Shown here piece after piece: positions 32,237 to 54,673 of a stretch of 64,000 nt of DNA (the stretch's first letter is position 1; each line of letters begins with the position of its first letter). The notes beneath the pieces are model-generated. The model was not told the DNA's origin, searched no databases, and saw nothing but the letters and a program-made list of their open reading frames with translations. The position numbers and the translations under genes are program-made. Source of the DNA: a bacterium (GTDB lineage Bacteria; Armatimonadota; Zipacnadia; Zipacnadales; UBA11051); assembly GCA_021372615.1 (NCBI GenBank), contig JAJFUB010000019.1, positions 62,001 to 126,000 on the forward strand, given 5' to 3'.

Positions 32237-33130
32237 CTACGCCAGGACCGTCAGGCCGTGCTGCCGCAAGATGTCTGCCAGGCGGGCGATGGTGGGGGCG
32301 TCGGGCAGGGGGACATCAGGCATGGTGTCCGGGTGGCCCACCGTCTCGTACTTCGACCGGGCCAGGTGGTAGGGCAACAGGCGTACCCCCACGAGGTTCG
32401 GCAGGCCGCTGAGCAGTTCCGCGATGCCGGTGAAGCTCGCCTCGTCGGCGTTGAAGCCAGGGATCGTCGGAATGCGGACCTCAATCGGCACGCCGCACCC
32501 GGCCAGCTTCCGCAGGTTGTCGAGGATCCCGGCCACGGGGCTGCCGGTGTGCTGCTGGTGGTGGCGGTCGTCGGTGTGCTTGACATCGAGCAGGAACAGG
32601 TCGGTCACGGGCACGACCGTGGCAAAGGCCTCCCAGTCCACCGCGCCGGAGGTGTCCACGGCGCAGTGGATGCCCTCGGCGCGCAGAAGCCTGAAGACCT
32701 CCGCGCAGAACGCCGCCTGCCACAACGGCTCTCCGCCCGACATCGTGCAGCCTCCGCCGGAGGTGGCGTAGAAGGTGCGGTCCTCCAGCACCGCCGCCGC
32801 CACGTCATCGGCTGACATCTCCTGGCCAAACATCTCCAGCGCACCGAGCAGGCAGGCGGCCACGCACTGACCGCAGACCGTGCACACCTCGCGGTTGAAG
32901 GTGTGCTCGCCGTCGCGAAGGATGTGCGCCCCGGTCGGGCAGACCTCGGCGCACTTGCCGCAGCCGACGCACTTGCGGCGGGCGAAGCCGATCTCGGGCG
33001 TGGGGGAGACGCTCTCGGGGTTGTGGCACCAGCGGCACTGCAGGGGGCAACCCTTCAGGAAAACAGTCGTCCGCAGGCCCGGCCCGTCGTGGACGCACAG
33101 GCGCTTGAGGTCCAGCACCATCCCCCGCAT
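32237..33130 (-). CDS. Glycyl-radical enzyme activating protein (radical SAM)
   Basis: 297 residues from ATG at 33130, whose A is also the last base of the upstream stop (TGATG), so the two genes are translationally coupled. The radical SAM cluster motif is C28-x3-C32-x2-C35 (GCPLQCRWCHNPES). It is followed by two ferredoxin-type CxxCxxCxxxC clusters (C54, C57, C60, C64 and C83, C86, C89, C93) typical of activases for dehydratase or decarboxylase-type glycyl radical enzymes, and by TMSGGEPLWQ for SAM binding. It installs the glycyl radical on the enzyme encoded immediately upstream. Oxygen sensitivity implies anaerobic expression. Confidence 0.95.
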   Translation of the reverse strand: MRGMVLDLKRLCVHDGPGLRTTVFLKGCPLQCRWCHNPESVSPTPEIGFARRKCVGCGKCAEVCPTGAHILRDGEHTFNREVCTVCGQCVAACLLGALEMFGQEMSADDVAAAVLEDRTFYATSGGGCTMSGGEPLWQAAFCAEVFRLLRAEGIHCAVDTSGAVDWEAFATVVPVTDLFLLDVKHTDDRHHQQHTGSPVAGILDNLRKLAGCGVPIEVRIPTIPGFNADEASFTGIAELLSGLPNLVGVRLLPYHLARSKYETVGHPDTMPDVPLPDAPTIARLADILRQHGLTVLA

Positions 33131-35190: not shown

Positions 35191-36187
35191 GGGTTTTCTC
35201 CGCGATCTCATCCATCTTGTGGTCGAAGGCCTCATCCACGACCTGGAACTCCGGGTGGTCATAGTAGAACTGGATCGTGCGCTGGATCCCTTCGGCAAAG
35301 TGGGTGGTGCAGACGAACTCCGGGACCGCCGCCCGGATCTTGCTGCTGTCATACACCCCGTTGCGCGAGAAGGAGATGAGCTTCTCGCCGAAGTCCCCGC
35401 CCAGCTCGAACCCCAGATCATGCGCTGGAACATAGCACAGGTTCGGCGGGCGGCCCAGCGCGTCGCCCACCATCTGGGCGACACGGTTCCAAGTGTAGCA
35501 CTCATCGGAGGTAATGTGGTAGGCCTCTCCGCACGCCGCCGGGTTGCCGCACAGGCCGACGAAGGCCTTGGCGAAGTCCTCGGTGTGGGTCACGGTGCAC
35601 AGCGCGGTGCCGTCATCGTGCATCAACAGGGGCCGGCCCTGCAAGATGCGCCGGGCAATGGTCCAGGAGTACTGCTGGTGGTTCGGCCCCACGGGGTGCA
35701 GGATGCGGAGCCTGTTGTAGGTGAAGGCCGGGCGGACGATGGTGTAGTCCAGGCCGGTGGCCTCGTGCTCGGCCTGCAACCGGCGCTCGCACAGGATCTT
35801 GTTGCGCCCGTATGACCACAGCGTGTTGCCGACCATCGTGTGTGCTTCGGTGATGATCTCGCGGTCGGTGCGAGTGCGGTAGACGGCGCCCGAGGAGACG
35901 AAGATGTACTGGCCGCAGCGCCCGCGGAAGACCTCCAGATTGCGTTCCAGGGCGTCCACGCCATAGGTCAGGAAGTCCGCCACCACGTCGAAGGTCAGAT
36001 CCCCGATCTGGGCGCGGACCTCGTCGGGCTTGCCGATGTCGGCCTGCAGGCAGTGCGTCGCGGCAGGGACGAACTGCGGGCGGCTGCCCCGGTTCAGCAC
36101 GTACAGCTCAAGGTCGCTGCGCTGCGCCGCCAGCGCGGCGATGTCGCCGCTAAGGCACCCGGTGCCGCCCAACAGCAGGACTCTCAT
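35183..36187 (-). CDS. NAD-dependent epimerase/dehydratase
   Basis: 334 residues from ATG at 36187. Rossmann start MRVLLLGGTGCLSGDIA, then FDVVADFLTYGVDALERN, YIFVSSGAVYR and SYGRNKILCE, in which Y-x3-K-like residues form the short-chain-type active site. A later TVTHTEDFAKAFVGL segment is typical of extended SDR proteins that act on nucleotide or free sugars. The start overlaps the stop of the oxidoreductase gene by four bases (ATGA), and its own end overlaps the glycyl radical enzyme start by eight, so the three genes must be co-expressed. Substrate unknown; it is likely a step that prepares the glycyl radical enzyme substrate. Confidence 0.9.
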   Translation of the reverse strand: MRVLLLGGTGCLSGDIAALAAQRSDLELYVLNRGSRPQFVPAATHCLQADIGKPDEVRAQIGDLTFDVVADFLTYGVDALERNLEVFRGRCGQYIFVSSGAVYRTRTDREIITEAHTMVGNTLWSYGRNKILCERRLQAEHEATGLDYTIVRPAFTYNRLRILHPVGPNHQQYSWTIARRILQGRPLLMHDDGTALCTVTHTEDFAKAFVGLCGNPAACGEAYHITSDECYTWNRVAQMVGDALGRPPNLCYVPAHDLGFELGGDFGEKLISFSRNGVYDSSKIRAAVPEFVCTTHFAEGIQRTIQFYYDHPEFQVVDEAFDHKMDEIAEKTHA

Positions 36188-37241: not shown

Positions 37242-39494
37242 TCAGGGGCGCACCTCCAGCCTGACTGCGCCGACGTACATCGTCGTCTTGCTGCTGTTCG
37301 GGCCGAACTCCACGGTCTGAATGCGGTGGATGTCCGGGTGGGTGAAGGGCAAGCCCTGGGCCGTCTTCCCCTCGACCGTCAGGTCGAACGTGCTGTGCAG
37401 CAGGTCGGCCTGGATGACCACCTGCTGCCAGGTGTCCGGCCTGATCGTCAGCCCCGCGATGGGCTGCTCCTTCTCGCTGTCATAGTAGCTCACCAGGCCC
37501 TTGGGCGAGAAGCGCACATGGAAGGCCCGGGCGCGGAAGACGTCGGGCTGGGAGTCAAAGGCATCAATGTCCACGAGATAGGCATTGGTGGAGGGGACAC
37601 AGACCCGGGCCGAGAGGGTGAGACTGCCGTTGGTCATGTCGGCCACATCCGCTGGGCTGAGCACCAGCCAGAGACACCCGCCCTCATTCCGCTTCTCGTC
37701 CCGGCGGACGAGACTGAGATAGTGGGTCGTCCCGCGTTTGCCGCTGCCGGGCGGGTCGTCGCACAGCACCTGCACCCGGTCCGGCGCGCCCTCGGTGACA
37801 TGCCACGCGGCGCCCTCCGGCCGCGTCGGCGGGTCCAGGTCGTCCGGTGTCGGGCTCACCCCGGCCGGGGCGGCGGCGAAGTCGTCATCCAGCGCCACGA
37901 AGGGCTGGCGGCTCGCATTCTTGCGCGGGATGAGGCCGGCGGCCTTCGGCAGCGGCGGATCGGGGGCGTAGGGCACGAACTGCAGGGAGTACAGATCGGC
38001 ATCCTTGAGCACGAAGCGCAGGCGCACCGGCTTGCCCGCCAGCGGCCGCAGGTCGCCCCCCACCTGCGCCCAGCGCACGATGTACTGCAGGTGGTCGCCG
38101 TAGATCGGCGGGCAGTCCTCCAGCGCGTACCCTTTCAGGGGCTGGCCGGCCTCGTCCTGTACCTCAACCTGCACCGACCCGGCGCCGGAGGTCTCGAAGT
38201 TGAGCGCGAGATTGCCGCCCGCGAAGCGCAGCGGCTTGGTCACGATCTCCCCGCCCGACATCGGCGCGCACGCCGAGACGAAGCCGTCCATGCGGATCGT
38301 GTAGCGCCGCACGTTCATGCTTGTGCCTTCCCAGTAGCCCTCGGTGGCGAACAGGGACAGCTCGTTGGGGGCATCGGCCAGCGACGAGGGGGTCTCCAGC
38401 ATGCCCCAGAACACGAAGTTGTCGCCATAGACCCAACTGTCGTGCCGGCGCGGCCCCGGCCGGATGAAGGCCTCCGGCCAGCGGCGGAAGGTCTTGCCGT
38501 CGCGACTGCTCATGAACACCGCATCGGTGACAGCGGTGCCATAGCGCGCGCTGCCGGCGGAGGCCCGGGCCAGGCGCTCGGGCAGCCCCGGCAGGAGGGT
38601 CACCGGCTCGGACCACCCGCGGTCCGTGTAGCGCATCGGGAACCCCAGGAAGATATGCGGGGCCCGGTAGTAGGGCTGGATCTGGTTGGTGTAGAGGTGC
38701 TCGGGCGTGACGCCGGGGTATTCGAGCCACTCCGGCGCCGGGAAGGGGGCCGTGAGCGTCCTGGCGGCGGCGGTCATGATGCCCCGCACGCCGTCCTTGA
38801 AGCCACGGTGGTACTCGCGGTACTCCTGCCGCACGGGGTCCCAGAACAGCAGGTTCTGCGAGTCGAACGCTCCCTCGGTCACGAGCGGCTCTTTGCTCAG
38901 CGGAGTGAAGTGAACACCGTCACCGGACTTGAGGACATAGAGCCCCGTCTTGGGCTTGCCGCCCAGAATGATGATCTTGATGCGCTCCTCGGGCGGACAG
39001 GCGGGGTTCTGATCCAGCACCACGGCTGTGTGGGCCGGGTCGCCCCCGACTGCGGCCGCCAGCTCGGGCGTGAGGACGATGTTGTTGTCCTTGGAGCCCT
39101 TGAACTCGACGACCCCGAGGTTCGGCCGCTCCCAGTGCAGGCCGTCCTTGCTCAGCGCCAGGCACAGGTTCCACGGGTGGTTCTCGAGCGCCAGCGTCGC
39201 CGGGCCGCCGGTGTTGTACTGCAGCCCCCGGTAGTACATGCGGTACACGTCGCCATCCTTGAACACCGACTGGTACGCGCTGGCATTGCCTTCCCAGGGA
39301 GCGTCGGTGGTGAAGACGACCTCACGCCGCTCGGGGCGGTGAAGCTGCAGTTGCGCGGCGCCCGTGAAGCCCTGGATCAGATAGTCGTCCACGAGCAACT
39401 CCAGGCGCGAGCCGATGTCAGTCGGCTCCGGCGCCGGCCAGGCAGTGGCCGCCAGGCCGACAGCCAGCAGGACGGCCAGCATGGTCCTCATCAT
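37242..39494 (-). CDS. Secreted five-bladed-propeller glycosidase-like protein with LamG-like tail
   Basis: 750 residues, ATG at 39494 (a second ATG follows) behind AGGAGG. Signal peptide 1-20. LELLVDDYLIQGFTGAAQLQ and repeated blades such as YRMYYRGLQYN, LALSKDGLHWERPNLGVVEF, GLYVLKSGDGVHFTPLS and AVFMSSRDGKTFRRWPEAF match the GH32/GH43/GH62-like beta-propeller group. From about 540 a jelly-roll resembling LamG or 3-keto-disaccharide hydrolase domains follows, ending FGPNSSKTTMYVGAVRLEV. The catalytic acids cannot be assigned with confidence. It is part of the secreted set in the minus-strand train. Confidence 0.85.
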   Translation of the reverse strand: MMRTMLAVLLAVGLAATAWPAPEPTDIGSRLELLVDDYLIQGFTGAAQLQLHRPERREVVFTTDAPWEGNASAYQSVFKDGDVYRMYYRGLQYNTGGPATLALENHPWNLCLALSKDGLHWERPNLGVVEFKGSKDNNIVLTPELAAAVGGDPAHTAVVLDQNPACPPEERIKIIILGGKPKTGLYVLKSGDGVHFTPLSKEPLVTEGAFDSQNLLFWDPVRQEYREYHRGFKDGVRGIMTAAARTLTAPFPAPEWLEYPGVTPEHLYTNQIQPYYRAPHIFLGFPMRYTDRGWSEPVTLLPGLPERLARASAGSARYGTAVTDAVFMSSRDGKTFRRWPEAFIRPGPRRHDSWVYGDNFVFWGMLETPSSLADAPNELSLFATEGYWEGTSMNVRRYTIRMDGFVSACAPMSGGEIVTKPLRFAGGNLALNFETSGAGSVQVEVQDEAGQPLKGYALEDCPPIYGDHLQYIVRWAQVGGDLRPLAGKPVRLRFVLKDADLYSLQFVPYAPDPPLPKAAGLIPRKNASRQPFVALDDDFAAAPAGVSPTPDDLDPPTRPEGAAWHVTEGAPDRVQVLCDDPPGSGKRGTTHYLSLVRRDEKRNEGGCLWLVLSPADVADMTNGSLTLSARVCVPSTNAYLVDIDAFDSQPDVFRARAFHVRFSPKGLVSYYDSEKEQPIAGLTIRPDTWQQVVIQADLLHSTFDLTVEGKTAQGLPFTHPDIHRIQTVEFGPNSSKTTMYVGAVRLEVRP

Positions 39495-39519: not shown

Positions 39520-42500
39520 TCATTTCACTGCGAAGCTCCCGGTGGCCTCCGCGCCGTCCCACAGGCTCCGGGCGCGGAGGGTCCACTTCCCGGCGGGGGC
39601 GTTGACTGGCAGGCGGAAGCGACGGCGGCAGGTGGCATCCTCGGTGCAGGTCAGGGCCGAGAAGGCCTGCAGCTTGCGCCCGTCCGGGGTCGTGACGGAT
39701 ACGTCCAGCAGGTAGTTGCCGCGGATGCTCTTGCCGCCCACGATCAGGCCATAGGCCACCTCCGCCCCGCGGCTGTAGGAGGCGCCGAGGCCTTCGAGGC
39801 GCAGGCCCTGCGGGTCCGAGGGAAACAGCCCCAGTACCCGCGTGCCGCCCCACGGGCACTTCAGCATCAGCGTGTGCTTCGGCCCGGGCTTGAGGCGCTC
39901 GCCGGTGACCATGTCGCGCACGACGCCACCCGCCTGTAGATACGGCAGCGTCACCTGGGTTGTCTCGAGCTTGCTCTCGTGGTTGATGAGCAGCAGCAGC
40001 GTCGTGCCCTGCGCCGTCTGGCGCAGCGCCGCCTCGATGCCGGGCGTGCTGGACGTCACGTTGGCCGGGCAGCCGGCGGCAGCGTTGCGGAGCAGGTCGA
40101 GAATGGCGTCGGCTGCCCCGTCCGCGTTCTGGCGCACGAGGGCGTCGAGGTAGCAGTCCTTGAGCTGGAAGTTCAGCAGCGTCGCCCGACCCTTGCCGCA
40201 CGGGCTGTTGTAGACCAGGGCCGTCTGGCCCTGCTGCTGGTAGCTCCGCCGGCCGGGCAGTTGCGCCTTGGTGCCGGGAATGGTGACAGGCACATCGGCG
40301 ATGTCCGCATCGCCCGTGACGCCGAAGACGGGCTCGAAGACCCCGAGCGGCTGCTTGCCCTCATCCTGGGAGGGCACCTCATCGGCGATCAGCAGGCCGC
40401 CCCGCTGCACCCACGCGCGGATCGCCTCAGCCTCCTGGCGCTTGAGCAGATGGATGTCGCACAGGACCAGCACCCGGTAGTTGTCCAGGCCGCCCTTCGC
40501 GATCTGCTCCTCGTGCAGGCAGTCCAGCTCGCCATAGGCCTGCCGGAAAGCTTCCAGGGCCACCATCACGTTCCAGTATTCCTCCTGCAGCAGAACATGC
40601 TGGGTGCGCGGGAAGAGGAACGCGGCCTTGGCCCGGGGGACAGCACTGCGGGTCAGCAAGGGCGCGAGGGACTTGACCTCGCTCATCGTGCTCCGGTACG
40701 TCTCCCACCACGCCGGGTCCTCGGGGAGGCCCCAGAAGGTGTTCAGGTAGTCGCAGCCGGCCGCGACGGAGGTGTAGGTCAACTCGCGCGGCGACCAGGG
40801 ATACCGGCGACCGGGCGCCTCGGGGCCCAGGTTCGTCCCCCAGCCCGCCTCGACCCAGAAGCCCAGCTTCTTGTGATAGGTGTAGGCCAGGTTGCGCATC
40901 TGCGCGAACGCCATGTGCATGCCGGCGATACGCGGCAGGCGGTTCTCCTGGAACTTGCCGCTGCGGAAGTCTGTGGACAGGTAGGGGTAGATGTCGTAGT
41001 TTACCGAGTCAAACGGCGCTCCCCAGTGGAACACATCGTCCACGGCCCAGAAGCCCTTGAAGTTGCGCCCGGCCGCGCCGAAGGTGCAGTGCGAATCGTG
41101 CGTCAGCTCCACCCAGAAGTCCGCGTCCAGCTCCTTGACCAGCGCGTAGCCCTGCCGCCAGTCTGCCGCGAAGCAGTCACTCCAGAAGTCCACGTACTTC
41201 AGCCACAGGGCCGGGTCGGCCATGGCCTGCTCGCGGGTGGGCATCTCGATCCCGTAGCGGCGCTTGAACTCCGCCTGCGCGGGCGGGCGGTTGTCGCAGG
41301 TCTGACCGCTGACCTGGAAGGGCTCATCCATGTAGCCCTGCACGTTGAGCAGGCGCGGGACCTGCTTGCACGTAGCGATGGCGGCCTCTATGCGGGGGCG
41401 GAGCGCCTCCTTGTACTCGGGGGAGAAGACCGATACCGGCGGCAGGCCGTCCCGCCGCAGCAGTGAGAAGTCGCCCTGGAAGGAGTAGCTGACCGCCATG
41501 CCCTTCTGCTGGGCGAGGTCCTCGGCCACGTCATAGGGTGAGCCGGGCTTGGCGCCCAGGCGACGGGCGCTGAAGGTGAGCGTGTTGAACCCGTGGGCGA
41601 TGATGTCGTCAATCTCGCGCGCGATGGCCGCCGGGTCCGACGTCCGCAGCGGCGACAGGCGCATGGTGGTGGGGTAGAAGTCCCTGAGGTCCAGCCGGGG
41701 CACGACCGTGAAGGGCGCCCCGAAGCTGTCGGCAACCTGGCCGCCGGCCAGCAGCGTCACCACGAGACGGTAGTCGCCCTCCATCAGGTCGGGGATGGGG
41801 ACGGCCCAGGTGTAGACGCCCTCCTTCACCGTCGGTTCGGGCACAGGCTGCTCGCGCCCCCAGGGGTCCACCACGGCGGCCTTGAGCGTCTTGCCCTCGG
41901 TCAGCAGGCCCTTCAGGTCGCCCTGCACCTGCAGCGTCATTCCCTGCGCCACCACGTGACGGTTGCCGGGCAGCGAGAGCGGGTTGGTAACTTCGCAGAC
42001 CAGGCTGCGATGGAAGACCGGCTGGCCCGCCGTGTCGGTGGCGGCCAGGTCCAGTTGCCACGGCCCGTCTGCGTCGGCGCTCCGGGTCTGGGCACCGGTC
42101 CACGCGGCCTGGAGCGCTTGCCCCGCGTGCAGCGGGTACGTGCCGACGACCGTGGCCTGCGCGTTGTGAGTGACGGTCGCCGTCAGCGTGCCGTCTACCG
42201 TCGGGGTGACGCCATCGAGGGCATAGCTCAGTTGCACGCCGCCGCCCCGGCGTAGCGTCGGGGGCGGGTACACTGGTCGCGCGACGGTCAGCCCTTCCGT
42301 CTGCCGGCCCAGCCACAGGATCGCCGTGGCCAGCAGGTCATCGCTCAGGTCGCCGGTGAGCAGGCCGCTGCCCGGGAGCGCGTCCATGAGCACTACGCGG
42401 CCCTGCCCGTACTCGCTGCACAGCACCAGCGGGCGCCCGCCGGCGGCGACGACGGTCGTGGCCCCCGACCGGGGGAGGACGCCGCGCAGATGATGCGCCG

Positions 42501-43413
42501 TGCCGAAGCGATCCGTGAGGGCGTTGGTGATCGGGTGGGGCGTCGGGAACGTCACTGGGCCCTCCACATCCACGCCCCGGTCATAGATGTGCGTGTGCTG
42601 GGCCATTGGCTTGATGTCGGCGGCCGGTCGCCAGGCGGAGTCGTCGTAGTCCACGGCCGCCCAATTGGGCTCCTCGGGGATGTGGAACTTCCAGGCCTTG
42701 CCGCTGACGATGAGCTGCTTCGTGCCGTCCTCGTACTCCAGACCGATCTGGGCGAAGAAGCCGCCCGGCCCGTCTACGTTGCGGGCCTTGAAGGCCACGG
42801 TGTTCTTGCCCTGGCGCAGCTTCGCGCCGAGGTCCCACAGCTCGTTGTCGAACCAGCTCCAGTGGTACCCGATCTGCTCGCCGTTGAGGTAGACCCAGTA
42901 CAGGTTGTCCGCGGTGCAGCGCACGAAGGCGCGCTTGACGGGCTTGGTGATCTCGAAGCTGCGGCGGATGTAGCGGATGTGGTCGTCGGACTCGCCCGGC
43001 TGCGTGCCGATCCACATCCAGTTGCCGGAGTCATCGGGGAAGAGGTCGGCGGCGATGGCATCGGCCGGTGCGGCCGCGCCGAGTGCCCGCCACAGCGGCG
43101 CGGTCGCTGGCAGCGAATCCGGCAACCCGGCGATCAGCACGCCACCGCCCTGGCTCACGAAGCCCTCCAGCGCCTTGTCGCCGGCGGGCAGCTTGCTCAG
43201 GTCCGAGGCGCCATCCAGCACGACGACGCCCGGGGGAATCGGGAGCGCCTCGCCTGCCGGGAGCGTCTGGACGCGACCGTGCAGGTCCGTCAGCGCCTGC
43301 GCCATCGGCAGCCCCGACGAGCCGCCGGTGAGGTCCACGATGCGGATGGTGTCGGCTCGGGCGCCCCCGGTCAGCAGCGCCAGGAGCGAAACGGTAGTCA
43401 GCGTGGCACGCAC
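39520..43413 (-). CDS. Very large secreted GH42-like protein with GH2-type sugar-binding domain
   Basis: 1297 residues from GTG at 43413, seven bases after GGAGGG. Signal peptide 1-20. Order: an alpha-beta domain (22-125) interrupted by a GH2-like jelly roll (about 145-260, WVYLNGEQIGYHWSWFDNELWDL), return of the first domain (about 290-370), beta sandwiches (380-570), TIM barrel (575-930), GATase-like domain (about 950-1150, DNYRVLVLCDIHLLKRQEAEAIRAWV), and an Ig-like tail. The fourth-strand motif is VQGYMDEPF (D696-E697), again Asp-Glu rather than Asn-Glu. The C-terminal LPVNAPAGKWTLRARS resembles the tails of the proteins at 10865 and 56396. Likely a glycoside hydrolase; substrate unknown. 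Confidence 0.85.
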   Translation of the reverse strand: MRATLTTVSLLALLTGGARADTIRIVDLTGGSSGLPMAQALTDLHGRVQTLPAGEALPIPPGVVVLDGASDLSKLPAGDKALEGFVSQGGGVLIAGLPDSLPATAPLWRALGAAAPADAIAADLFPDDSGNWMWIGTQPGESDDHIRYIRRSFEITKPVKRAFVRCTADNLYWVYLNGEQIGYHWSWFDNELWDLGAKLRQGKNTVAFKARNVDGPGGFFAQIGLEYEDGTKQLIVSGKAWKFHIPEEPNWAAVDYDDSAWRPAADIKPMAQHTHIYDRGVDVEGPVTFPTPHPITNALTDRFGTAHHLRGVLPRSGATTVVAAGGRPLVLCSEYGQGRVVLMDALPGSGLLTGDLSDDLLATAILWLGRQTEGLTVARPVYPPPTLRRGGGVQLSYALDGVTPTVDGTLTATVTHNAQATVVGTYPLHAGQALQAAWTGAQTRSADADGPWQLDLAATDTAGQPVFHRSLVCEVTNPLSLPGNRHVVAQGMTLQVQGDLKGLLTEGKTLKAAVVDPWGREQPVPEPTVKEGVYTWAVPIPDLMEGDYRLVVTLLAGGQVADSFGAPFTVVPRLDLRDFYPTTMRLSPLRTSDPAAIAREIDDIIAHGFNTLTFSARRLGAKPGSPYDVAEDLAQQKGMAVSYSFQGDFSLLRRDGLPPVSVFSPEYKEALRPRIEAAIATCKQVPRLLNVQGYMDEPFQVSGQTCDNRPPAQAEFKRRYGIEMPTREQAMADPALWLKYVDFWSDCFAADWRQGYALVKELDADFWVELTHDSHCTFGAAGRNFKGFWAVDDVFHWGAPFDSVNYDIYPYLSTDFRSGKFQENRLPRIAGMHMAFAQMRNLAYTYHKKLGFWVEAGWGTNLGPEAPGRRYPWSPRELTYTSVAAGCDYLNTFWGLPEDPAWWETYRSTMSEVKSLAPLLTRSAVPRAKAAFLFPRTQHVLLQEEYWNVMVALEAFRQAYGELDCLHEEQIAKGGLDNYRVLVLCDIHLLKRQEAEAIRAWVQRGGLLIADEVPSQDEGKQPLGVFEPVFGVTGDADIADVPVTIPGTKAQLPGRRSYQQQGQTALVYNSPCGKGRATLLNFQLKDCYLDALVRQNADGAADAILDLLRNAAAGCPANVTSSTPGIEAALRQTAQGTTLLLLINHESKLETTQVTLPYLQAGGVVRDMVTGERLKPGPKHTLMLKCPWGGTRVLGLFPSDPQGLRLEGLGASYSRGAEVAYGLIVGGKSIRGNYLLDVSVTTPDGRKLQAFSALTCTEDATCRRRFRLPVNAPAGKWTLRARSLWDGAEATGSFAVK

Positions 43414-43452
43414 GATGCAACCCTCCGGTGTGGGTCAGATTGGCGCGGCGTC

Positions 43453-46029
43453 TCAGTGCGCATAGGTGAGGATCAAGTCAATCCAGGTGATGCTGAGCGG
43501 CTCGGCGGTGGTCTGCGCCGGGCGCGTGTACACCAGGCGAAGATCATTGGGCCCCAGGCGCCACCAGGCCGCGTCGGCGGGCAGCCTGTGCTCCCCGCGA
43601 CGCCACCACTCGGCCTCGAAGATGTAGGCCTGGTCCCGGGCAGTGCGCGGGTCCACGGTCTGGGCGCCGCGCCGGGCCTGCTCGGACTCGGCGTCGCCCG
43701 AGATCGTCAGCGGGCCCTGCCCGTTGACGGTCAGTTCCAGGCGCTCCCCGGTCTCCAGCGGCCGGCAGTAGATGACCACCTCGGCCTTGGCAGTGTAGCC
43801 CCGGCGCTGCATCCCGGGAATGTCGTCCCCCAGGCGCAGGCCCACGGTACACTCGCCCCGCTGCCCGCCCGCCGCGTCCGTCATGGCGAAGGGCTTGGCG
43901 CGCAGGGCGATGGGGTCCACCATATAGTGCTTGTCGGCGGTGAGGACCTGCTCCGGGTCGGCCAGGTCGTTGAGCCACGGCATGTGGCGCCACTGGTCCT
44001 CGGAGAAGCCAAGCTGGAGGCCATCCGCCCCGGCACGGTGGAACAGGAGCGCCTGGGCGAAGTACATGCCCTTCGTCTTGGGCTTGTCATAGCGGCGACG
44101 GCCCGTGGCCTCGTCGCCGGGGCGCTGGTCGGTGTCCACGAAGCCGAGCGCCTGCCACTCGGTCGGGTAGACCTTGACGCCCGTCTCGGCCCCCAGCTTG
44201 ACGAAGTCCTCCACGCGGATGTCGAAGTAGTCGCCGGGGCGCAGGTGGGTGGGGACGATGATGTCCACCAGGTGCTCGCGCAGCCATGTCGGCCAGTCCA
44301 GGCCCAACTCCGCATACCCATACGCCGGCACGCGGACCATCATGTCCAGATGCTTCCCCCGGCGGGCGCCGAACTCGTCCAGCAGTTGCCGCACCTCGCG
44401 CAGGAAGCTGGTCATGGTTGCGGGGTCCGGCTGCTCAAAGAACGGGGGGTAGACGGCGAGGTCGAGTTCCAGGCCGTCGGCCTCGGCCTCCAGCGCCTCG
44501 CGGAAGATCGCGAGCTTGAAGGCCCGCACCTCGGGATGCTTGAAGTCCAGCAGCACGCGGCCGGGGATGCGGTACTCCGGGTGCTCCTTGTTCAGGCGGC
44601 CCACGAAGGCCACCCACATCCAGTTGTCGGCGGCGGCAGGGCCGTACTCGTGGTTCATCTCCAGACGGGCCAGGAGCTTGAGCCCCACGGCGTGGGCGCG
44701 CTCCACCGCCATCCGCAGCGGGCCGGGGCCCTCGCGGATCAGCCCCATCACGTTCTCATGGACCCACAGGTCGCCCTCGCGCAGCAGCCCCCGCTGCCGC
44801 TCGTCGAGGCCCTCGCCGAAGACCTCGCCTACCTTCGTCTCGTAGCAGAAGACGCTGCCCGGCCCCAGGCCCCATACGAGGAGGCCGGCATTGCTGCCGG
44901 CCAGCGGGTCCACGTAGCGCTCCTCCAGCGTGCGCCGCGTGAACGGGGGGCGGGTGTAAAAGGGGCTGAAGCCATCGTGGCGATAGGCCAGGTCCAGCTT
45001 GCGCAGCGGCTGCTTGCTCCAGTCCACCGGCGGCGCCTCCGGCGCGAGCCCCAGCGCCCGCTGGGCTGTGCGCACATAGCGTTCGTTGATCGTGAACAGC
45101 CCCAGGGCCTTCGCTTCGGCGTAGGGGCGCTGGCCGTAGTGATAGCGCGTCGCATCGGCCAGGCTGTAGTTCTCCAGTCCGTTGACCTCCAACGGGCTGA
45201 AGTACATCGTCTCGCACTTGCGCGCCCGCAGGTCCCAGCCCCACTGTGCGCTGGCGTCGGCCCGGACGGCCGGGCTCTGCTGCCCCACGAGTGCCGGGTT
45301 GCGCCACAGCTCGCGCAGCGAGGCCAGGTGGCCGTCGGGCTTGACGAAGTACATCCCGCAGCGCGGGTCCATGTACGCCCAGCCGCCCTCGACGTAGATC
45401 TCGGTGGTGATGTGCCCGCCGAGGATGTGCATGACCAGCCGCCCGGGAAGGCCCGCGACCTCACACAGCGCCACGTGCAGGCGGCTGAGCGTCTCGCAGA
45501 GGATCTCCGGCTTGGCGACCATCTGCTCCTCGGTGCCGCCGTAGACATAGCGGGTGAAGTCCGCGTCCGGGGCCTGCCGGCGCAGGTCGCGGCAGAAGCG
45601 CATGAGCGCCAGGGCGCGTTCGCGGTCGGTGCGGCAGCCGGCGGTGAGGCGGCCGACCAGGGCATCGAGTTCGGGCCGGTCGCCACGCCGGTAGCGGGGT
45701 GTCAGCGGGGTGAACTCGGTGTAAAGGACCGCCTCGGTCTGCGGGCAGAGGATCACCAGTTCGTCGCGAAGCTGGGCCTCCACGTTGGGCCCGTAGTTGA
45801 TCCCGAGTTGCTCCTGGTTGAGGCGATAGGCCTCGGCCCGGTCGTCGCCCACGAGGCGGTCGGCGGCGGCCCGGCCGGTGTACGGGGCCAGGTCGGCCAC
45901 GGAATGCGCGCGCGGCCCGCGATAGAGCTTCTCCTGTGCCCGGGTCCAGGCGTCATCCGCGAGGGCGTCGGTGCTGGTCAGCAGGCACAACACGACGCCC
46001 GCGACCAGCCAGGGCGCGAAACAGTCCAT
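43453..46029 (-). CDS. Secreted transglutaminase-like/TIM-barrel fusion protein
   Basis: 858 residues, ATG at 46029 after GGGGAG, signal peptide 1-24. Residues about 110-230 have the cysteine-protease-like transglutaminase core: EILCETLSRLHVALCEVAGLPGR with C178, GGHITTEIYV with H206 and WAYMDPRCG with D221, all in the right order and spacing. Residues about 370-740 form a TIM barrel resembling hypothetical glycosyl hydrolase family 10-like proteins (AHAVGLKLLARLEMNHEY, VRAFKLAIFREALEAEADGL, ELDLAVYPPF). A beta-rich tail follows. Joining these two modules is unusual; the first may cleave or cross-link peptide, the second act on glycan. It lies in the secreted part of the train. Confidence 0.8.
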   Translation of the reverse strand: MDCFAPWLVAGVVLCLLTSTDALADDAWTRAQEKLYRGPRAHSVADLAPYTGRAAADRLVGDDRAEAYRLNQEQLGINYGPNVEAQLRDELVILCPQTEAVLYTEFTPLTPRYRRGDRPELDALVGRLTAGCRTDRERALALMRFCRDLRRQAPDADFTRYVYGGTEEQMVAKPEILCETLSRLHVALCEVAGLPGRLVMHILGGHITTEIYVEGGWAYMDPRCGMYFVKPDGHLASLRELWRNPALVGQQSPAVRADASAQWGWDLRARKCETMYFSPLEVNGLENYSLADATRYHYGQRPYAEAKALGLFTINERYVRTAQRALGLAPEAPPVDWSKQPLRKLDLAYRHDGFSPFYTRPPFTRRTLEERYVDPLAGSNAGLLVWGLGPGSVFCYETKVGEVFGEGLDERQRGLLREGDLWVHENVMGLIREGPGPLRMAVERAHAVGLKLLARLEMNHEYGPAAADNWMWVAFVGRLNKEHPEYRIPGRVLLDFKHPEVRAFKLAIFREALEAEADGLELDLAVYPPFFEQPDPATMTSFLREVRQLLDEFGARRGKHLDMMVRVPAYGYAELGLDWPTWLREHLVDIIVPTHLRPGDYFDIRVEDFVKLGAETGVKVYPTEWQALGFVDTDQRPGDEATGRRRYDKPKTKGMYFAQALLFHRAGADGLQLGFSEDQWRHMPWLNDLADPEQVLTADKHYMVDPIALRAKPFAMTDAAGGQRGECTVGLRLGDDIPGMQRRGYTAKAEVVIYCRPLETGERLELTVNGQGPLTISGDAESEQARRGAQTVDPRTARDQAYIFEAEWWRRGEHRLPADAAWWRLGPNDLRLVYTRPAQTTAEPLSITWIDLILTYAH

Positions 46030-46067
46030 GGTAGCATTCTCCCCTGTTGTGGGCCGTAACGGCCCCG

Positions 46068-49000
46068 TCAGCGCGAGTTCAGATCGTTGGACAGCACGAG
46101 CTTCTGCACGCCGAGCTTGCTGCTGGCCGGCCAGGCCAGCTTGAGGACGTGCTCACCCGGCTGCAGCGATACGACAACAGGCTTGTCGGCAGCGGTCGTC
46201 GGCAGCCACTGCCAGAAGGTCTCGGTCGCCGAGGCGCTGCCAGCGGGCTGGCCGTCGCAGGTGACGGCCACTTGCCCCGGTCCGCCCATCGCCCGGCCCC
46301 GCAGCCACACGCGGTACTGCCCGGCCTCGACCACCTGCAGCTTGAGGACGGCCTCGCCCGGCTGCTTGCCGGTGAGGGCCGCGAGCTTCCAGGTCGGTCC
46401 GCTGCGCAGGGCCGTCAGGCCCACACCACCACTCAGCTGCGCCTCGTCGGCGGTCACGGCGGGGTAGCTGTAGGTGGGCAGATCGGGCGACGCGGCGGCG
46501 GTCAGGTTCACATCATCCACGCACAGCTTGATCGTCACCGGCTCGCGCGTGTTCATGTTGACGGCGACGTAGGCGCTGTTGCCATAGTCGGGGACGGTGA
46601 AGCTGCAACTGAGACGCTGCCACGTCCCCGGCTTCGTGTCATCGTACGTCGTTGTCGCGAAGGCGGTGCGTGTCTGGACCTTGTCGCGAATGGCGCAGCG
46701 CAGGCTCACGGGCGGGGTGCCGGGCGTGATCTCGACGACCTTCACCCAGGCCGAGAGGCGATACTGCTGGCCGGCCTGCAGGCTCATGATCTCCCACGGC
46801 GGGCCGCAGGCGTAGCGGGTGACGAGGTATTCGTTCTGGCCCTGGCCCGTGCCGGTGACGAGGGCGCCGAGCTTGCCGCTGTGCGCGGCCTCCGGCGAGG
46901 GGTTCACCACGAAGCCCAGACGCGTGACCCAGCCTGAGATGCCCTCCTCGAAGTCGGGGTTGGGCATGAGGGTCGGCAGGGCAGACAGGGCGGGCGAGCG
47001 GGCCTCCCGGAGTTGCTGGGCGTAGAACGTGCCGAAGTCCGGGCCGGGGAACTTGCCAATCTCGGTGATGGCCCCGGGCATAGAGTGGATGAGGTATCCG
47101 GCGCTCTTGCCCCCGGAGGCTGTGCTTTGCAGGCCGATCATCGCCCCCGCGAAGCTGAGGCGCACGATCTCCCGGAGGTCCTCGTTGTGGGTGCGGTTGG
47201 CGGCGAAGGCGAGGCCTTCGTCCATGATGCCGCCACTGCCCGAGCCGGCCGCGGTCAGGGGGCAGGAGGTGTAGCGGAAGCCGTTCTCGGCCGGCACCCA
47301 CATCGTGTCCACGATGAACTTGGCGATGCCCACGATGTCATCGGCGACCTGCTCGCGGCCGGTCTCCTGGTAGAAGCGCTTCATGCCGGTCATCAGCACG
47401 CCGGCCATGAAGCCCGCCTCACCGGAGTGCTTCTGGTCGTCGGGGCAGTTGCAGTGGCCCGTCGGGAGCTTGTGGTAGTACAGGCCATACTCGGGCCGTG
47501 TCGCCTGGGCCTTCTCGTGCACCTTGGTCAGCATGATGTCGGCGGCGTTGAGGTAGTACGGGTCGCGCGTGGCGCGGTAGGCGCTCATGACCGCGATGGT
47601 CATCCAGCCGGGCTCACGCGCGTTGCCGAAGTCGAAGTTGGTGGTGTTAGGACCGGCCATCCAGTCGGCGGCGAGGCGGGCGCTGGCCAGGACCAGCGGG
47701 TCACCCGAGAGCATCCCGTACAGGAAGTTGCCGCCGGTCCACATGTGCCCGCGGTTGGTGGCGTAGCCGAGGGAGTAGACTTCCATGTCCTTGTAGTTGC
47801 GCGGGTAGTAGCCGCCGGTGTGGCCCATGCAGTGGACCCATATCTCGCCCGGCATCGGCTCGACGCCGCGGTCGGGTAGCCGCGTGGGCTCCTCGGCCCA
47901 ATGGATCGTGTCAATGTCCGTGTTGTGGCGCGAGGCAGCCTCGCCCAGATAGAAGAAACGCGGGTCGCCGGTGCGCAGGTACTGCTGCAGCATGCCGACC
48001 TGCAGGTCGTACTCGATGTTGCCCCAGTTCAGGCGGCGCTCGCCCCACCAGTCGCCGTAGTTCATCAGCCCGTACTCGTGGTCGCGCTCGCGCCCATCGA
48101 GGTAGGCCGTGAGGCCGTCAGCCAGGATCTGGTCATAGGCGGCCCAGGCGGCAGCGTTGTCGGCGAGGATGTCGCCGGCCGCCTGCGCGGCCTGGTAGTA
48201 CCGCGCCGGGGCCACGGCGGTGAGCGGGCGGGCGGCGCGCGCCATCACTTCGGCCGCGTCGGCCGGCGGGCCCAGCCATAGCTCGTGGCGCTTCATCAGG
48301 CCGCGCCGGTAGGTGTAGTTGCCATCGCGCAGGTAGTAGTACAGCTTCTCCTCATCGGGCTTGTTGGCGTACAGGTCGGCGGGGGAGATGGGCGGGCAGA
48401 GGCCCAGGCGCAGACCCGACGCGGTCGCGCCCAGCGACTTGGGGTACTGCTGCCAGAAGTCCTTGACCGCGAGCGTCAGGGCGTCGGTCTTCACCCAGCC
48501 GGCGAGGCGCTTGCCCGACGCGGCGCCGACGAACTTGTCGTCGAACTGCTGGACGACGTCGGCCCCACCGGCGAGGCTGACGGGAGTGGCGTCCACGACC
48601 CCGACGGTAGTGCTGGTCGGGGCGGCGGCGGTTGCCGCGTCCAGCGACAGCGACTTGATGGCCGTCAGGTTCTCGTGAATGAGGTCATTGCCGAAGACGT
48701 GGTCCACGCGGACGTACGACTTGCCCGCGAAGGCCGTAACGAGCAGGGCGCCCATGAAGTGCTTGCGCCCGGCGGCGGTGTAGTGGCCATCCATGCGGAC
48801 GGTCGTGCGGAGAGCGCCGCGCTCGATAATCTGCACGTCCTCGGTCTCGAAGGCGAACGCGGTTCCGTCCTTGTCGGTGAGCGTGCTGGTCAGGCCGGCG
48901 AGGAGAGCATCGCCGGCGGCGGCGCGCAGCTCGGCGGCGCCCGCGCGCGGCGCGATGACATGCGCCGGGCCGGTGTCCACGAGCACGCCGCCGCGCCCGG

Positions 49001-49679
49001 ACAGCTCGGCCAGCTTCAGCGGGGCGGCCACCGGCGGGCTGGCGGCCTTCGCCCCGTACTCGAGCACGAGGCCGAGCCTCTGGTCAGCCTTCAGGTCAAG
49101 CTGGGTGTCCAGCAGCAGCCACTTGATGCTGCCATCCTCCCAGCGCGACTCCGCACGGGCTTGCAGGGGCAGCGGCCCTGAGGGGGCCAGCAGGCGGGTG
49201 TTGGTCGCCTCGAACAGCGCGCCCTTCGCGAGGGGCACGCCGCAGGTCAGCGGCGTTCGGGCGCGATCCTGGCCGGCGGGCTCGGCGACGGTCAACTCCA
49301 CCTTGCCGGCGGGCACGGGGCGTGGGGCGGCGGGGCTGGCGACGGGAACTGTCTGCTCGACGGCGGCCTTGTCCAGGCCGGTCAGCACCAGACGGAGCGT
49401 CCGGTTCGGGCCGACAGACAGACCGGGGAAGTCCAGCCGGTGGTTGTTGCAGGCGTACTTCTCCGGCCCCGCGCCTGGCGCGCCGGTCAGCTCGCCCGTC
49501 GCCACGGCAGGCGCATTGGTGATGAAGCGGACCTGCAGGTCGTAGGTCTTGCCGACCTCACGCCAGACCGGGCGAACGGTGAGGGCCCGCAGGGCCAGGG
49601 GTGGCGGCGGGGTCGCCGGGGCCTGGGCGAAGGCGGCACAGGCAAGCAGGAGTGTCAGCAGTGGCAAGACGCGGCGCAT
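46068..49679 (-). CDS. Secreted PcRGLX/YetA-like polysaccharide lyase relative with CBMs
   Basis: 1203 residues, ATG at 49679 after GGAGG, signal peptide 1-18. The region PLQARAESRWEDGSIKWLLL (about 170-190) is the hallmark of the RIFT-barrel domain of exo-rhamnogalacturonan lyase PcRGLX and YetA proteins. It is followed by a central beta domain (FMGALLVTAFAGKSYVRVDH) and an (alpha/alpha) toroid (about 490-830; YGDWWGERRLNWGN, HWAEEPTRLPDRG, HCMGHTGGYYPRNYKD). Two beta-sandwich modules are added at the end: a CBM4/9-like one (about 865-1050, NPDFEEGISGW) and another of about 140 residues. It probably cleaves acidic, rhamnose-containing or pectin-like chains, but the substrate is inferred from the family. 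Confidence 0.85.
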   Translation of the reverse strand: MRRVLPLLTLLLACAAFAQAPATPPPPLALRALTVRPVWREVGKTYDLQVRFITNAPAVATGELTGAPGAGPEKYACNNHRLDFPGLSVGPNRTLRLVLTGLDKAAVEQTVPVASPAAPRPVPAGKVELTVAEPAGQDRARTPLTCGVPLAKGALFEATNTRLLAPSGPLPLQARAESRWEDGSIKWLLLDTQLDLKADQRLGLVLEYGAKAASPPVAAPLKLAELSGRGGVLVDTGPAHVIAPRAGAAELRAAAGDALLAGLTSTLTDKDGTAFAFETEDVQIIERGALRTTVRMDGHYTAAGRKHFMGALLVTAFAGKSYVRVDHVFGNDLIHENLTAIKSLSLDAATAAAPTSTTVGVVDATPVSLAGGADVVQQFDDKFVGAASGKRLAGWVKTDALTLAVKDFWQQYPKSLGATASGLRLGLCPPISPADLYANKPDEEKLYYYLRDGNYTYRRGLMKRHELWLGPPADAAEVMARAARPLTAVAPARYYQAAQAAGDILADNAAAWAAYDQILADGLTAYLDGRERDHEYGLMNYGDWWGERRLNWGNIEYDLQVGMLQQYLRTGDPRFFYLGEAASRHNTDIDTIHWAEEPTRLPDRGVEPMPGEIWVHCMGHTGGYYPRNYKDMEVYSLGYATNRGHMWTGGNFLYGMLSGDPLVLASARLAADWMAGPNTTNFDFGNAREPGWMTIAVMSAYRATRDPYYLNAADIMLTKVHEKAQATRPEYGLYYHKLPTGHCNCPDDQKHSGEAGFMAGVLMTGMKRFYQETGREQVADDIVGIAKFIVDTMWVPAENGFRYTSCPLTAAGSGSGGIMDEGLAFAANRTHNEDLREIVRLSFAGAMIGLQSTASGGKSAGYLIHSMPGAITEIGKFPGPDFGTFYAQQLREARSPALSALPTLMPNPDFEEGISGWVTRLGFVVNPSPEAAHSGKLGALVTGTGQGQNEYLVTRYACGPPWEIMSLQAGQQYRLSAWVKVVEITPGTPPVSLRCAIRDKVQTRTAFATTTYDDTKPGTWQRLSCSFTVPDYGNSAYVAVNMNTREPVTIKLCVDDVNLTAAASPDLPTYSYPAVTADEAQLSGGVGLTALRSGPTWKLAALTGKQPGEAVLKLQVVEAGQYRVWLRGRAMGGPGQVAVTCDGQPAGSASATETFWQWLPTTAADKPVVVSLQPGEHVLKLAWPASSKLGVQKLVLSNDLNSR

Positions 49680-49706: not shown

Positions 49707-52094
49707 TCAGTGCTTGGTGATGAAGGCCTGGACCAGGGGTGCATCGAGGTCGCGGTCGGTGAGCACGAGATAGACGGGCAGGTAGATGCCGCCCATGGCC
49801 AGGCGGTTGAGGACACGCACGGCAACCGTGTTGCCCTGCCCGGCGCGCAACTGTGACGCGACATCCGCCAGGAAGGGTGTGGTCCAGATCTGCTCGGGGG
49901 TCAGGCCGGTGCTGGGGCAGGAGTGCTCGCAGACCTGCCGGCCATTGACGTAGACCCACGCGTCCTCATCTACGGCCCCGAAGTACAGATAGGCATGTTT
50001 GCGCGCGGGGCCGGCGGGCAGCGTGAGCTGCTGGCGGTACCAGCCGAACCCCGTGTAGTCGGGGAAGCCCTGGCTCTCCCAGCCGTTCCCCTTGTCGCTG
50101 CGCACGACGGCCCAGCGGGAGTCGTCCGCACCCTCGGAGAACCAGCCGTCCTTGACGCCGACATCGCGCGGGTCGGTGGTGAAACGCCACTCGGGCGCCA
50201 GCGGACGGACGGTGACCTCCTCCGGCTTGATCTGCTGCAGGCTCTGCTTGACGCGGATCGCGTCGCGCCACCCCTTCAGCTTCTCCTCCAGGTCCGGACC
50301 GCCCTCACGCAGGTACTGCACCTTCTCGCGGCGGGCGATGGTCTCGAACTCCGCGAGTACAGCGGCGTACTGGTCCGGCCAGGCGTCCGGGCCCTGCACG
50401 AGCTTCACGTACAGGATCGGCAGCTTGGCGAGGTCCACACGCCGGCGCGCCTCGCCGGTGGGGCATTGCTGCTGCGCGTCGTCGAACAGCCGCGTGGACT
50501 GGTCGAGGAATTCCCTGGACAGGAACGGGGAGGTCATCGGGTAGCGGATGCCGCCCTCGGGCTTCTCCATCGTGTCCATGTGCTTGGCCTTGTTGGCATA
50601 GGACAAGTCCCAGTACGCCAGGAGGTCGCCAGCGGCGCGGCCGTAGTAGCCGGTGATGAAGTCAGTGACGAGGTCGGGCACCTGGAGCGACGGGTCCCAC
50701 AGGACTTTGGCCATCACCCACGACCGCAGGGCGGCGAACTCGCTGCCGAAGCCCTGGTAGGCCGCCTGCATCATGATGCCCTTGACCTTGTGGCTCACGT
50801 AGAAGTCCACGGTCGGCTGCAGCACATCCATGTTGGGCATGGGGGCCGAGTAGTGGCTGAAGTTGACGAAGTAGTCCCAGATGCTCAGGTTGTCGGCGAC
50901 CTTCGACCAGGCGATGATGGCGTCGCGGTAGCGCTTGCTCCGCGGGCCGGTGTTGTCGGTGAAGCAGGTGAAGGGATACGGCCACGAGTGCAGGTCGTTG
51001 CACAGGCGGATGATGACATTGTGGCGCGGGCGCACAAGCTTCGGCGCGTCCACGGTGTCGAGGTAGGCCAGGGTCGAGACCATGACCTCCGGCCGCTCCT
51101 GCTCCACGGCCTCGGCAATGTGGTTGAGGAAGGTGATGAGCGTCCCCGAGGGGCTGCCGTTGGCGTTGTCCACGGCCTGGCAGTTCGGGCACAGGCAGTG
51201 CTGCCCGCCGTCGTTGGGCGAGACTTCCACGATCTCGGTGTGCGGGTTCTTGCGCAGGATGGCCAGGAGGCTCTCGGTGGCGAGGCGCAGCACTTCGGGG
51301 TTGGTCAGGCAGAGCTGCTGGGCCGACCGCTTGCCGCTCTTGGCGAGCATGAAGTACTCCGGGTGTTTCTCGAAGTACTGGCCGGGCGGGACGAGCGTGT
51401 TGAACGTGTGGACGAAGAGGCCGTCGTAGTCCACGTGGCCGCCCCATTCCTCGGGGACGGCGGCGCCGGGGGCGTTCGTGCGGTTGCGCAGCGACCACGT
51501 GGCATCGAAGGCGTCGAAGTAGAACGGATCGCGCAGGAACAGGCGGGGCGCAAAGCCGCGCGGGACGGGAGCGAAGGTCAGCGTGCGACGGTGGGGGATA
51601 CGGGCCGAGGTGCGGTCATACCAGCGACAGCCCAGGTCCTCCTCGAGCAGGGCGTAGACGGCGTTGATGGCTCCGCGGGCCTTGCCGCCCACGAGCAGCA
51701 GGCGCTGGCCGGAGACGGCGATGGCGTAGCCCTCGTTGCCGAGCCCGCCGCGCGGCAGCGGCAGCTTCACTCCGGCCAGCCGGTTGGTCTGGCCGACGCT
51801 GATCTCGGTCGGCCGGGCGGGCTCCGAGTCCGGGACGATCGCGAGCTTCGCGTCGGTCATCTCGCCGAGCCATTGGGCGAGATCGGCGGCGGCCTTCTGG
51901 TCCTGGGTGGTCGGGGCCGCCGGGATGACGATGACATAGTCCGTGGCCCCGCCCTTGGCCAGCGTCAGGGGCGCGGCGGCCTGACCCGTCGGCTGCAGGC
52001 TGTTGTGCCAGCGGGCCGGCGCGGCAACACACACCGCGGAGATCAGGAGCAGCGGCAGGGCGATCGGTAGCCAGGGCGCGGTCGGTCGGTTCAT
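49707..52094 (-). CDS. Secreted DUF4838 protein with alpha-glucuronidase-like N-terminal domain
   Basis: 795 residues, ATG at 52094 with a GAGGTGA site, signal peptide 1-25. Residues about 50-180 resemble the N-terminal domain of alpha-glucuronidases (DYVIVIPAAPTTQDQKAAAD, GYAIAVSGQRLLLVGGKARG, NAVYALLEEDLGCRWY). Residues about 210-480 are the DUF4838 barrel with the cysteine cluster QHCLCPNCQAVDN (C300, C302, C305) and a GIMMQAAYQGFGSEF segment. The last 150 residues form a GH2-type sugar-binding jelly roll (GFGWYRQQLTLP, YLYFGAVDEDAWVYVNGRQV). The function of DUF4838 is unproven, though it is generally taken as a glycosidase. It is the first gene of the 22 kb minus-strand train. Confidence 0.87.
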   Translation of the reverse strand: MNRPTAPWLPIALPLLLISAVCVAAPARWHNSLQPTGQAAAPLTLAKGGATDYVIVIPAAPTTQDQKAAADLAQWLGEMTDAKLAIVPDSEPARPTEISVGQTNRLAGVKLPLPRGGLGNEGYAIAVSGQRLLLVGGKARGAINAVYALLEEDLGCRWYDRTSARIPHRRTLTFAPVPRGFAPRLFLRDPFYFDAFDATWSLRNRTNAPGAAVPEEWGGHVDYDGLFVHTFNTLVPPGQYFEKHPEYFMLAKSGKRSAQQLCLTNPEVLRLATESLLAILRKNPHTEIVEVSPNDGGQHCLCPNCQAVDNANGSPSGTLITFLNHIAEAVEQERPEVMVSTLAYLDTVDAPKLVRPRHNVIIRLCNDLHSWPYPFTCFTDNTGPRSKRYRDAIIAWSKVADNLSIWDYFVNFSHYSAPMPNMDVLQPTVDFYVSHKVKGIMMQAAYQGFGSEFAALRSWVMAKVLWDPSLQVPDLVTDFITGYYGRAAGDLLAYWDLSYANKAKHMDTMEKPEGGIRYPMTSPFLSREFLDQSTRLFDDAQQQCPTGEARRRVDLAKLPILYVKLVQGPDAWPDQYAAVLAEFETIARREKVQYLREGGPDLEEKLKGWRDAIRVKQSLQQIKPEEVTVRPLAPEWRFTTDPRDVGVKDGWFSEGADDSRWAVVRSDKGNGWESQGFPDYTGFGWYRQQLTLPAGPARKHAYLYFGAVDEDAWVYVNGRQVCEHSCPSTGLTPEQIWTTPFLADVASQLRAGQGNTVAVRVLNRLAMGGIYLPVYLVLTDRDLDAPLVQAFITKH

Positions 52095-54611: not shown

Positions 54612-54673
54612 GCCCGGACGCCGGGCGGCGAGCAGTGAGGGCACTGGCCCCGGGGGCCCAAAGGAGACGGAGA

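Follow-up and report, generated by a model that had tools for sequence, protein, structure and literature searches.

In this study, we have analysed a 64,000-nucleotide stretch of DNA from a bacterium of the Armatimonadota (contig JAJFUB010000019.1 of assembly GCA_021372615.1, positions 62,001 to 126,000 of the forward strand; the whole stretch is called the window below) and, within it, one minus-strand gene at 43453..46029 that encodes 858 amino acids plus a stop codon from an ATG start. The product joins a transglutaminase-like cysteine module to a barrel like that of the glycoside hydrolase family GH156. The module carries a conserved, predicted catalytic triad, the pocket of the barrel is altered, and the fusion is conserved in other genomes. 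Based on these observations, we propose that the protein is secreted and works in two steps, cleaving an amide linkage and a glycosidic linkage other than a sialoside within the same glycoconjugate, a reading to which we give a probability of about 0.5.

In the proposed mechanism, C178, activated by H206 and oriented by D221, would attack an amide bond, or an acyl bond resembling it, and hydrolyse it. The GH156-type barrel would cleave a glycosidic bond with D352 as its base. The proton donor, which in GH156 sialidases is a histidine, could be E457 or another residue of a conserved loop, RLEM(N/Q)HEYGP, and the sugar of the barrel would lack an anomeric carboxylate and hence would not be sialic acid. 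The common substrate of the two modules may be a glycopeptide or else a polysaccharide that bears N-acyl groups or amino acids in amide linkage, and the product may be imported by a symporter of the kind encoded near some stand-alone copies of the cysteine module. This names a candidate two-step glycoconjugate-breaking enzyme for poorly known phyla.

The fused gene and its cysteine module

The reading frame itself looks genuine. Its G+C content at third codon positions (GC3) is 0.93, and that of three neighbouring minus-strand genes is 0.92-0.93. An antisense open reading frame of 1189 amino acids runs across the gene on the plus strand (42490-46059); its GC3 of 0.70 marks it as a GC-rich shadow. 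By eye, the N-terminus of the protein resembles a Sec signal, with a hydrophobic stretch followed by ALA, so that residues 1-24 (45958..46029; all features of this gene lie on the minus strand) form a putative signal peptide. A single secreted chain is also what had been proposed in an earlier reading made from the DNA letters only (the sequence-only reading), and the N-terminus agrees with it. No NCBIfam family was found for the fused protein, a plasmid search gave no match, and viral contigs gave no pattern match.

The module with its helical flanks covers about residues 26-325 (45055..45954), as delimited on an AlphaFold2 model whose structural matches are led by transglutaminase-fold enzymes. 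Within it, the Pfam family PF01841 (Transglut_core) matches residues 123-222 (45364..45663) with 29.3 bits against a curated cut-off of 23, and is the sole Pfam family at E 0.1. When the genome of the window (G000) was searched, the same residues scored 34.1 bits, the weakest of four matches (the other three at 84-108 bits). The predicted nucleophile C178 (45496..45498), the predicted triad histidine H206 (45412..45414) and the predicted triad aspartate D221 (45367..45369) stand in the order and context that the sequence-only reading had described, and they are invariant in all 14 aligned module copies. Since only 28 of 308 columns are invariant overall, the chance that three columns named beforehand would all be so is about 0.0007 by simple multiplication. 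This alignment holds eight modules from fused genes (that of G255 belongs to a gene cut further on by a contig end), one piece from G293 and five stand-alone modules.

Structural evidence points the same way. The AlphaFold2 model of residues 26-333, built from four sequences, has a predicted template modelling score (pTM) of 0.71 and a mean predicted local distance difference test (pLDDT) of 68.9. Its best Foldseek match is 3isr (E 0.04), and VIA-align also puts 3isr first (Z 8.0, 116 aligned residues, 3.7 A), followed by TG2, TG3, TglA and factor XIII, with LapG, peptide:N-glycanase (PNGase) and same-fold acyltransferases lower. Some unrelated rows stand among the transglutaminase-fold ones in this list, a Z of 7-8 alone may reflect a common arrangement, and families missing from the VIA lists were not counted as evidence. 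The profile of the 14 modules aligns the triad to the Cys, His and Asp of 3ISR, but at E 0.57; a SIS-domain protein ranked ahead of it (E 0.39), and this protein was also the one match of the G262 module against solved structures in phmmer (E 0.053). We took the SIS match as chance. We therefore accept the transglutaminase fold because the VIA list is coherent, Pfam scores the module above its cut-off and the triad is conserved, all taken together, and not because of one strong score: residues 26-333 are a transglutaminase-like (PF01841) module with an ordered, conserved Cys-His-Asp. A conserved GG(T/F)EE stretch and the extra helical flanks are further features of it. PMC4866520 describes how the transglutaminase superfamily uses Cys-His-Asp/Glu for varied reactions, and therefore the fold implies acyl or amide chemistry rather than a particular bond.

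A GH156-like barrel with a rebuilt pocket

The sequence-only reading had placed a glycosidase-like TIM barrel after the triad, and we can now identify it as GH156-like. In phmmer, the fused protein matches the GH156 exosialidase 6rzd among solved structures (6.5e-11, residues 494-619), a five-sequence barrel profile matches 6rzd at 3.5e-18, and Foldseek gives 6s00 for the barrel at 1.7e-18. When nine further GH156-like proteins from the phylum are combined into a profile, it finds both 6rzd (1.9e-63, residues 11-486) and the window protein (1.6e-74). By sequence, profile and fold matches the barrel covers about residues 343-703 (43921..45003), its limit towards the next domain being approximate. 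It is followed by a C-terminal beta-sandwich at about residues 714-857 (43459..43890), placed by the VIA range and by strands in the model, as in the solved exosialidase EnvSia156. Barrel and sandwich together align to 6s04 with Z 20.2 (361 residues, 343-856 vs 6-502, root-mean-square deviation 8.0 A), on a model whose mean pLDDT is 64. Predicted structures of both modules, which the sequence-only reading had called for, thus give a transglutaminase-fold list for one and a GH156-like barrel for the other.

According to PMC6811678, the base of EnvSia156 is Asp14 and its acid is His134, and Arg129, Arg202 and Asn346 hold the carboxylate of the sugar. To read these positions, we aligned residues 9-488 of EnvSia156 by MAFFT with ten rows of the window clade and 22 other GH156-like rows. 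In all ten clade rows, position 14 is Asp (D352 in the window protein, 44974..44976), position 129 is Glu (E457, 44659..44661), position 134 is Tyr (Y462, 44644..44646) and position 202 is Val (V526, 44452..44454). Position 346 is Phe in five, Met in three and Gln in one, with one row unread, so that Asn occurs in none of the nine readable rows; both G591 copies have an Asn next to this position, where the alignment is ambiguous. The loop RLEM(N/Q)HEYGP is specific to the clade and identical in all ten rows except for N/Q, and D523 is kept. An alternative register, in which R455 and H460 would correspond to Arg129 and His134 with the same spacing of five, was considered and set aside, as the ungapped alignment from a conserved Gly and a shared Met-Asn favours E457 and Y462; this assignment rests on the sequence alignment.

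The other 22 rows present a different picture, with Arg202 in all of them, Arg129 and His134 in ten each and Asn346 in 11. Among the ten that keep His134, position 14 is Asp in six, Cys in two and unread in two. Eleven of the 22 combine Gly129 with Tyr134, and in these position 14 is Glu in nine (two unread) and position 346 is Gln in ten (one unread). This third pocket group, in Armatimonadota, thus reads Glu, Gly, Tyr, Arg, Gln where readable, in frames of 509-800 amino acids (L021, L023, L024, L027-L032, L037 and L038; L numbers denote loci and G numbers genomes). L033 is intermediate, with D, R, Y, R and N at positions 14, 129, 134, 202 and 346. There are at least three GH156-like pocket types, and that of the window clade is alone here in being without Arg202. 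These 22 rows are a selection from the best 30 loci of the phylum search; L035:2940-4001, a second reading frame of its locus, was excluded. Among the loci as a whole, L012 is without the C-terminal columns, and neither L004 and L009 (the window itself) nor L010 (the contig of L006) were recounted. For L017 and L019, two alignments disagree on position 14.

The barrel is GH156 by fold and, judged from these alignments, not a GH156 sialidase by residues. The clade keeps the GH156 scaffold and base, and other residues now stand where those needed for sialidase action were. Annotation based on fold alone could label these proteins sialidases, and the Glu/Tyr/Val signature speaks against it.

Spread of the fusion

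The sequence-only reading had suggested a search for the same fusion in other genomes, and it is indeed found there. Seven complete genes occur in six genomes (G000, G246, G265, G291, G292 and twice in G591), and two more are broken, in G255 by a contig end and in G293 across two contigs. They come from the Armatimonadota, from the Hydrogenedentota and from the phylum to which a Lentisphaerae genome belongs. In the phylum of the window, 69 of 291 genomes match at E 0.001, mostly via other GH156-like proteins, and four carry the fusion (G000, G246, G265 and the cut G255). At 1e-20, eight of 68 genomes match in the phylum of G292 (fusion in G292, and in G293 as two contig-end pieces) and eight of 387 in the sampled phylum of G291 (fusion in G291 and twice in G591). 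At most three candidates were scored per genome in the first phylum and at most two in that of G291, so these genome counts are lower bounds. A peptide-pattern scan of 84,980 species genomes, which misses divergent copies, found four loci. The same protein stands on the L006 contig (JALGUG010000018.1, Candidatus Zipacnadia) and in G246, which is of the class of the window. The two fused copies of G591 stand on separate contigs and are very similar to each other (L077:6758-9418 and L078:6183-8720; phmmer 1744 bits).

The barrel clade is monophyletic (100/100). In the trees, G262, which has the module only, groups with G246 (99/97), and G259, which has the barrel only, falls among the fused barrels (91/99, not starred); as far as sequence trees can tell, these places fit a later loss of one module. 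The stand-alone modules of G655, G420 and G611 group with G591 (88/93, not starred) and may be either older or younger than the fused form; the G293 module (L049) was excluded from the module tree. The fused copy of G291 (L005), a Lentisphaerae-labelled genome of 14.1 Mb, clusters with the copies of the window and of G255 in each of the two trees, a placement that suggests transfer or mis-binning in a mixed bin.

We found no description of this fusion, and no paper combining GH156 and transglutaminase, in the portions of the literature available to us. The accessible part of one study of archaeal adhesin-like proteins lists transglutaminase and putative glycosyl hydrolase domains, and one protein with both is not stated there (PMC11532034). 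In the main text of the Zipacnadia paper, as far as it was accessible, the terms sialic, GH156 and transglutaminase do not occur (PMC10290634).

One substrate for two modules?

Stand-alone copies of the cysteine module offer an independent view of what it works with. We surveyed their neighbourhoods in five genomes (G655, G420, G611, G262 and G276); more distant stand-alone transglutaminase-type matches occur elsewhere, for instance in G205, G004, G248, G063 and G217. In three of the five, the module lies beside or near a barrel-type gene (directly in G655 and G420, at about 1.9 kb in G611). In G655, the module has a barrel gene directly on either side, and both belong to the third pocket group (4e-109 and 2e-132 by profile). 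In G420, a 565-amino-acid protein is encoded 6 bp upstream of the module (3 bp more without its stop codon), and a 583-amino-acid homologue of it lies near the G611 module. These two are putative barrel proteins, judged by their link to a GHL10-like, GH156-like gene of G591 (L078:13540-15000, E 1.5e-11). No solved structure matched the G420 protein, and part of another homologue is found about 5.7 kb from a G591 fused gene (L077:1-1056). A gene for a sodium:solute symporter (SSF) follows the next barrel gene in G655 and lies directly downstream of the module in G420, which suggests uptake of a small product. The pairing in three of five genomes therefore modestly favours a shared substrate with both an amide and a glycosidic bond, and the association of this cysteine-hydrolase family with barrel proteins directs attention to a glycan that carries amides. 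The idea that one protein could act on both the peptide and the glycan part of a glycoprotein thus survives as far as the two bond types are concerned; the step to glycoprotein or mucin is not supported. A peptidoglycan-like polymer, the other target named in the sequence-only reading, could be the substrate as well, the data speaking neither for it nor against it.

Several observations weigh against the two-step reading. The acid His of GH156 is replaced by Tyr, so that catalysis by the barrel is not assured, and our searches turned up no activity for any member of the window clade. For the full-length protein the model is of low quality (mean pLDDT 64.0, pTM 0.42), and Foldseek gave no match for the cysteine module at E 0.001. 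The modules also occur singly: G262 and G276 have just the cysteine module, and G259 has just the barrel. As for the pairing, the 565-583-amino-acid neighbours in G420 and G611 match barrel profiles weakly (E 0.014-0.28), and a GntR-type gene stands between the module and the 583-amino-acid protein in G611. The G262 module lies between two heparinase II/III-like genes (L074:4899-10110), and for G276 (34% identity) no barrel was found within 12 kb.

The nearest solved relative of the barrel is a GH156 exosialidase with the same barrel-sandwich architecture, and Asp14 is kept, so one could imagine an exosialidase joined to a protease that strips sialic acid from sialoglycoproteins and cuts their peptide. 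We consider this highly improbable and have rejected the sialidase reading, as the carboxylate triad and the acid are lost: Arg129, His134 and Arg202 are replaced in all ten clade rows, and position 346 is not Asn in any of the nine readable ones. Moreover, a PF04131 search, the only route of sialic acid use that was searched, found no NanE in the genome of the window, nor in G259, G262 or G265; in G255 a partial match exceeds the cut-off (29.3 bits against 27), and the match in G246 falls short of it. The same losses of the general acid and of the carboxylate-binding positions could mean that the barrel is a pseudoenzyme which binds glycan and so guides the cysteine hydrolase, as the one catalyst, to its substrate. 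This we hold to be somewhat unlikely, given that a uniform Glu/Tyr/Val with a near-identical loop in ten of ten rows speaks for a new active site more than for decay, that D352 and D523 are kept, and that G259 has the barrel without the module.

The cysteine module may also be questioned. Its fold is common to TG2, factor XIII and arylamine N-acetyltransferases, and it could cross-link or transfer acyl groups, the protein then modifying the envelope of its own cell instead of acting as a hydrolase. The context of its cysteine, ILCETL, is without the Gly-Gln-Cys-Trp motif of animal transglutaminases, and the same-strand neighbours look degradative, which makes this quite doubtful. The occurrence of the module without the barrel (G262, G276) and of the barrel without the module (G259) would suit two modules with different substrates, fused for joint secretion or regulation; the pairing of unfused modules with barrel-type genes argues otherwise, and we regard this as unlikely. 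A bolder version of the two-step proposal is that the cysteine module is secreted as an amidase that releases glycans, the bacterial counterpart of PNGase, and the barrel the first recognised member of a new glycosidase family derived from GH156, with an acidic pocket in place of the sialic-acid grip. We think this rather improbable; if true, one chain would free and trim an amide-linked glycan that has so far not been reported as a substrate from these phyla.

Genes around the fusion in the window

The fused gene is the third in a run of five minus-strand genes, from 52094 down to 37242, separated by gaps of 27, 38, 39 and 25 bp, which looks like an operon. Upstream are a gene with DUF4838 (304.8 bits) and a GH2 sugar-binding domain (49707..52094) and a PcRGLX-like gene of the rhamnogalacturonan exolyase type with CBM_4_9 (46068..49679). 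Downstream are a gene for 1297 amino acids with a rhamnosidase N-domain (25.6 bits, cut-off 25; 39520..43413), which also has sub-threshold GH42-like and MG2-like matches, and a gene for a secreted-looking protein of 750 amino acids (37242..39494) with no meaningful Pfam match and no match among solved structures.

The sequence-only reading had supposed that the fusion would shift the view of the whole secreted set from pectin towards glycoprotein or mucin. This finds no support: the barrel is without a sialic-acid site, NanE was not found in its genome, and the adjacent same-strand genes still look directed at plant or algal polysaccharides (PcRGLX, DUF4838, rhamnosidase-like). For the most part this neighbourhood is also absent at the other fusion loci examined, and the genes around the fusions mostly differ; the comparison included little flank for G255 and left out G293. 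Some links were found. A close homologue of the 750-amino-acid protein adjoins the G265 fused gene (L079:6754-8319, 1.5e-240), a weak DUF4838-type homologue of the 49707-52094 gene lies near one G591 fused copy (1.3e-8), and a neutral ceramidase-like protein of the window (29485-30843, minus strand) has a homologue near the fused gene of G292 (L007 4574-6367, 1e-18). Elsewhere in the window, a PFL-type glycyl-radical enzyme (32237-35505, minus strand) adjoins a radical-SAM activase-like gene, and a 573-amino-acid protein (54635-56353, plus strand) has no Pfam match at E 0.001.

Comparison with known systems

PNGase belongs to the same superfamily as the cysteine module (2F4O and 2F4M; 158 residues align in VIA with Z 5.8, a score that other transglutaminase-fold rows equal). 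It has zinc-binding CxxC motifs, whereas residues 26-333 of the window protein hold no CxxC, and it is absent among the sequence matches of the fused protein, the five-sequence barrel profile, the G262 module and the 14-module profile. PNGase acts on glycopeptides, as stated in PMC2791212. The module also shares its fold with 3ISR, a transglutaminase-like putative cysteine protease of Cytophaga hutchinsonii, and with 3KD4 (VIA Z 8.0 and 6.5), with the same Cys-His-Asp order; it differs in sequence (the aligned parts are 16% and 11% identical), in its helical flanks and GG(T/F)EE stretch, and in its fusion to a glycosidase-type barrel.

For the barrel, the peptidoglycan lytic transglycosylase Cwp19 (5OQ2) is related and more distant than GH156 (VIA Z 15.9, vs 20.2 for 6s04), and the fused protein gave no match to GHL10 (PF02638) at E 0.1. 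The closest comparison is EnvSia156, an inverting GH156 exosialidase (6rzd, 6s00, 6s04; PMC6811678 and PMC6254351). The two share the barrel and C-terminal beta-sandwich over residues 343-856, and Asp14, D199 and R246 correspond to D352, D523 and R566 (Arg in seven of nine readable clade rows), although the phmmer match is local (126 query residues). They differ in that R129, H134, R202 and N346 are replaced by E457, Y462, V526 and F675, and in that the window protein carries a cysteine-hydrolase module at its N-terminus.

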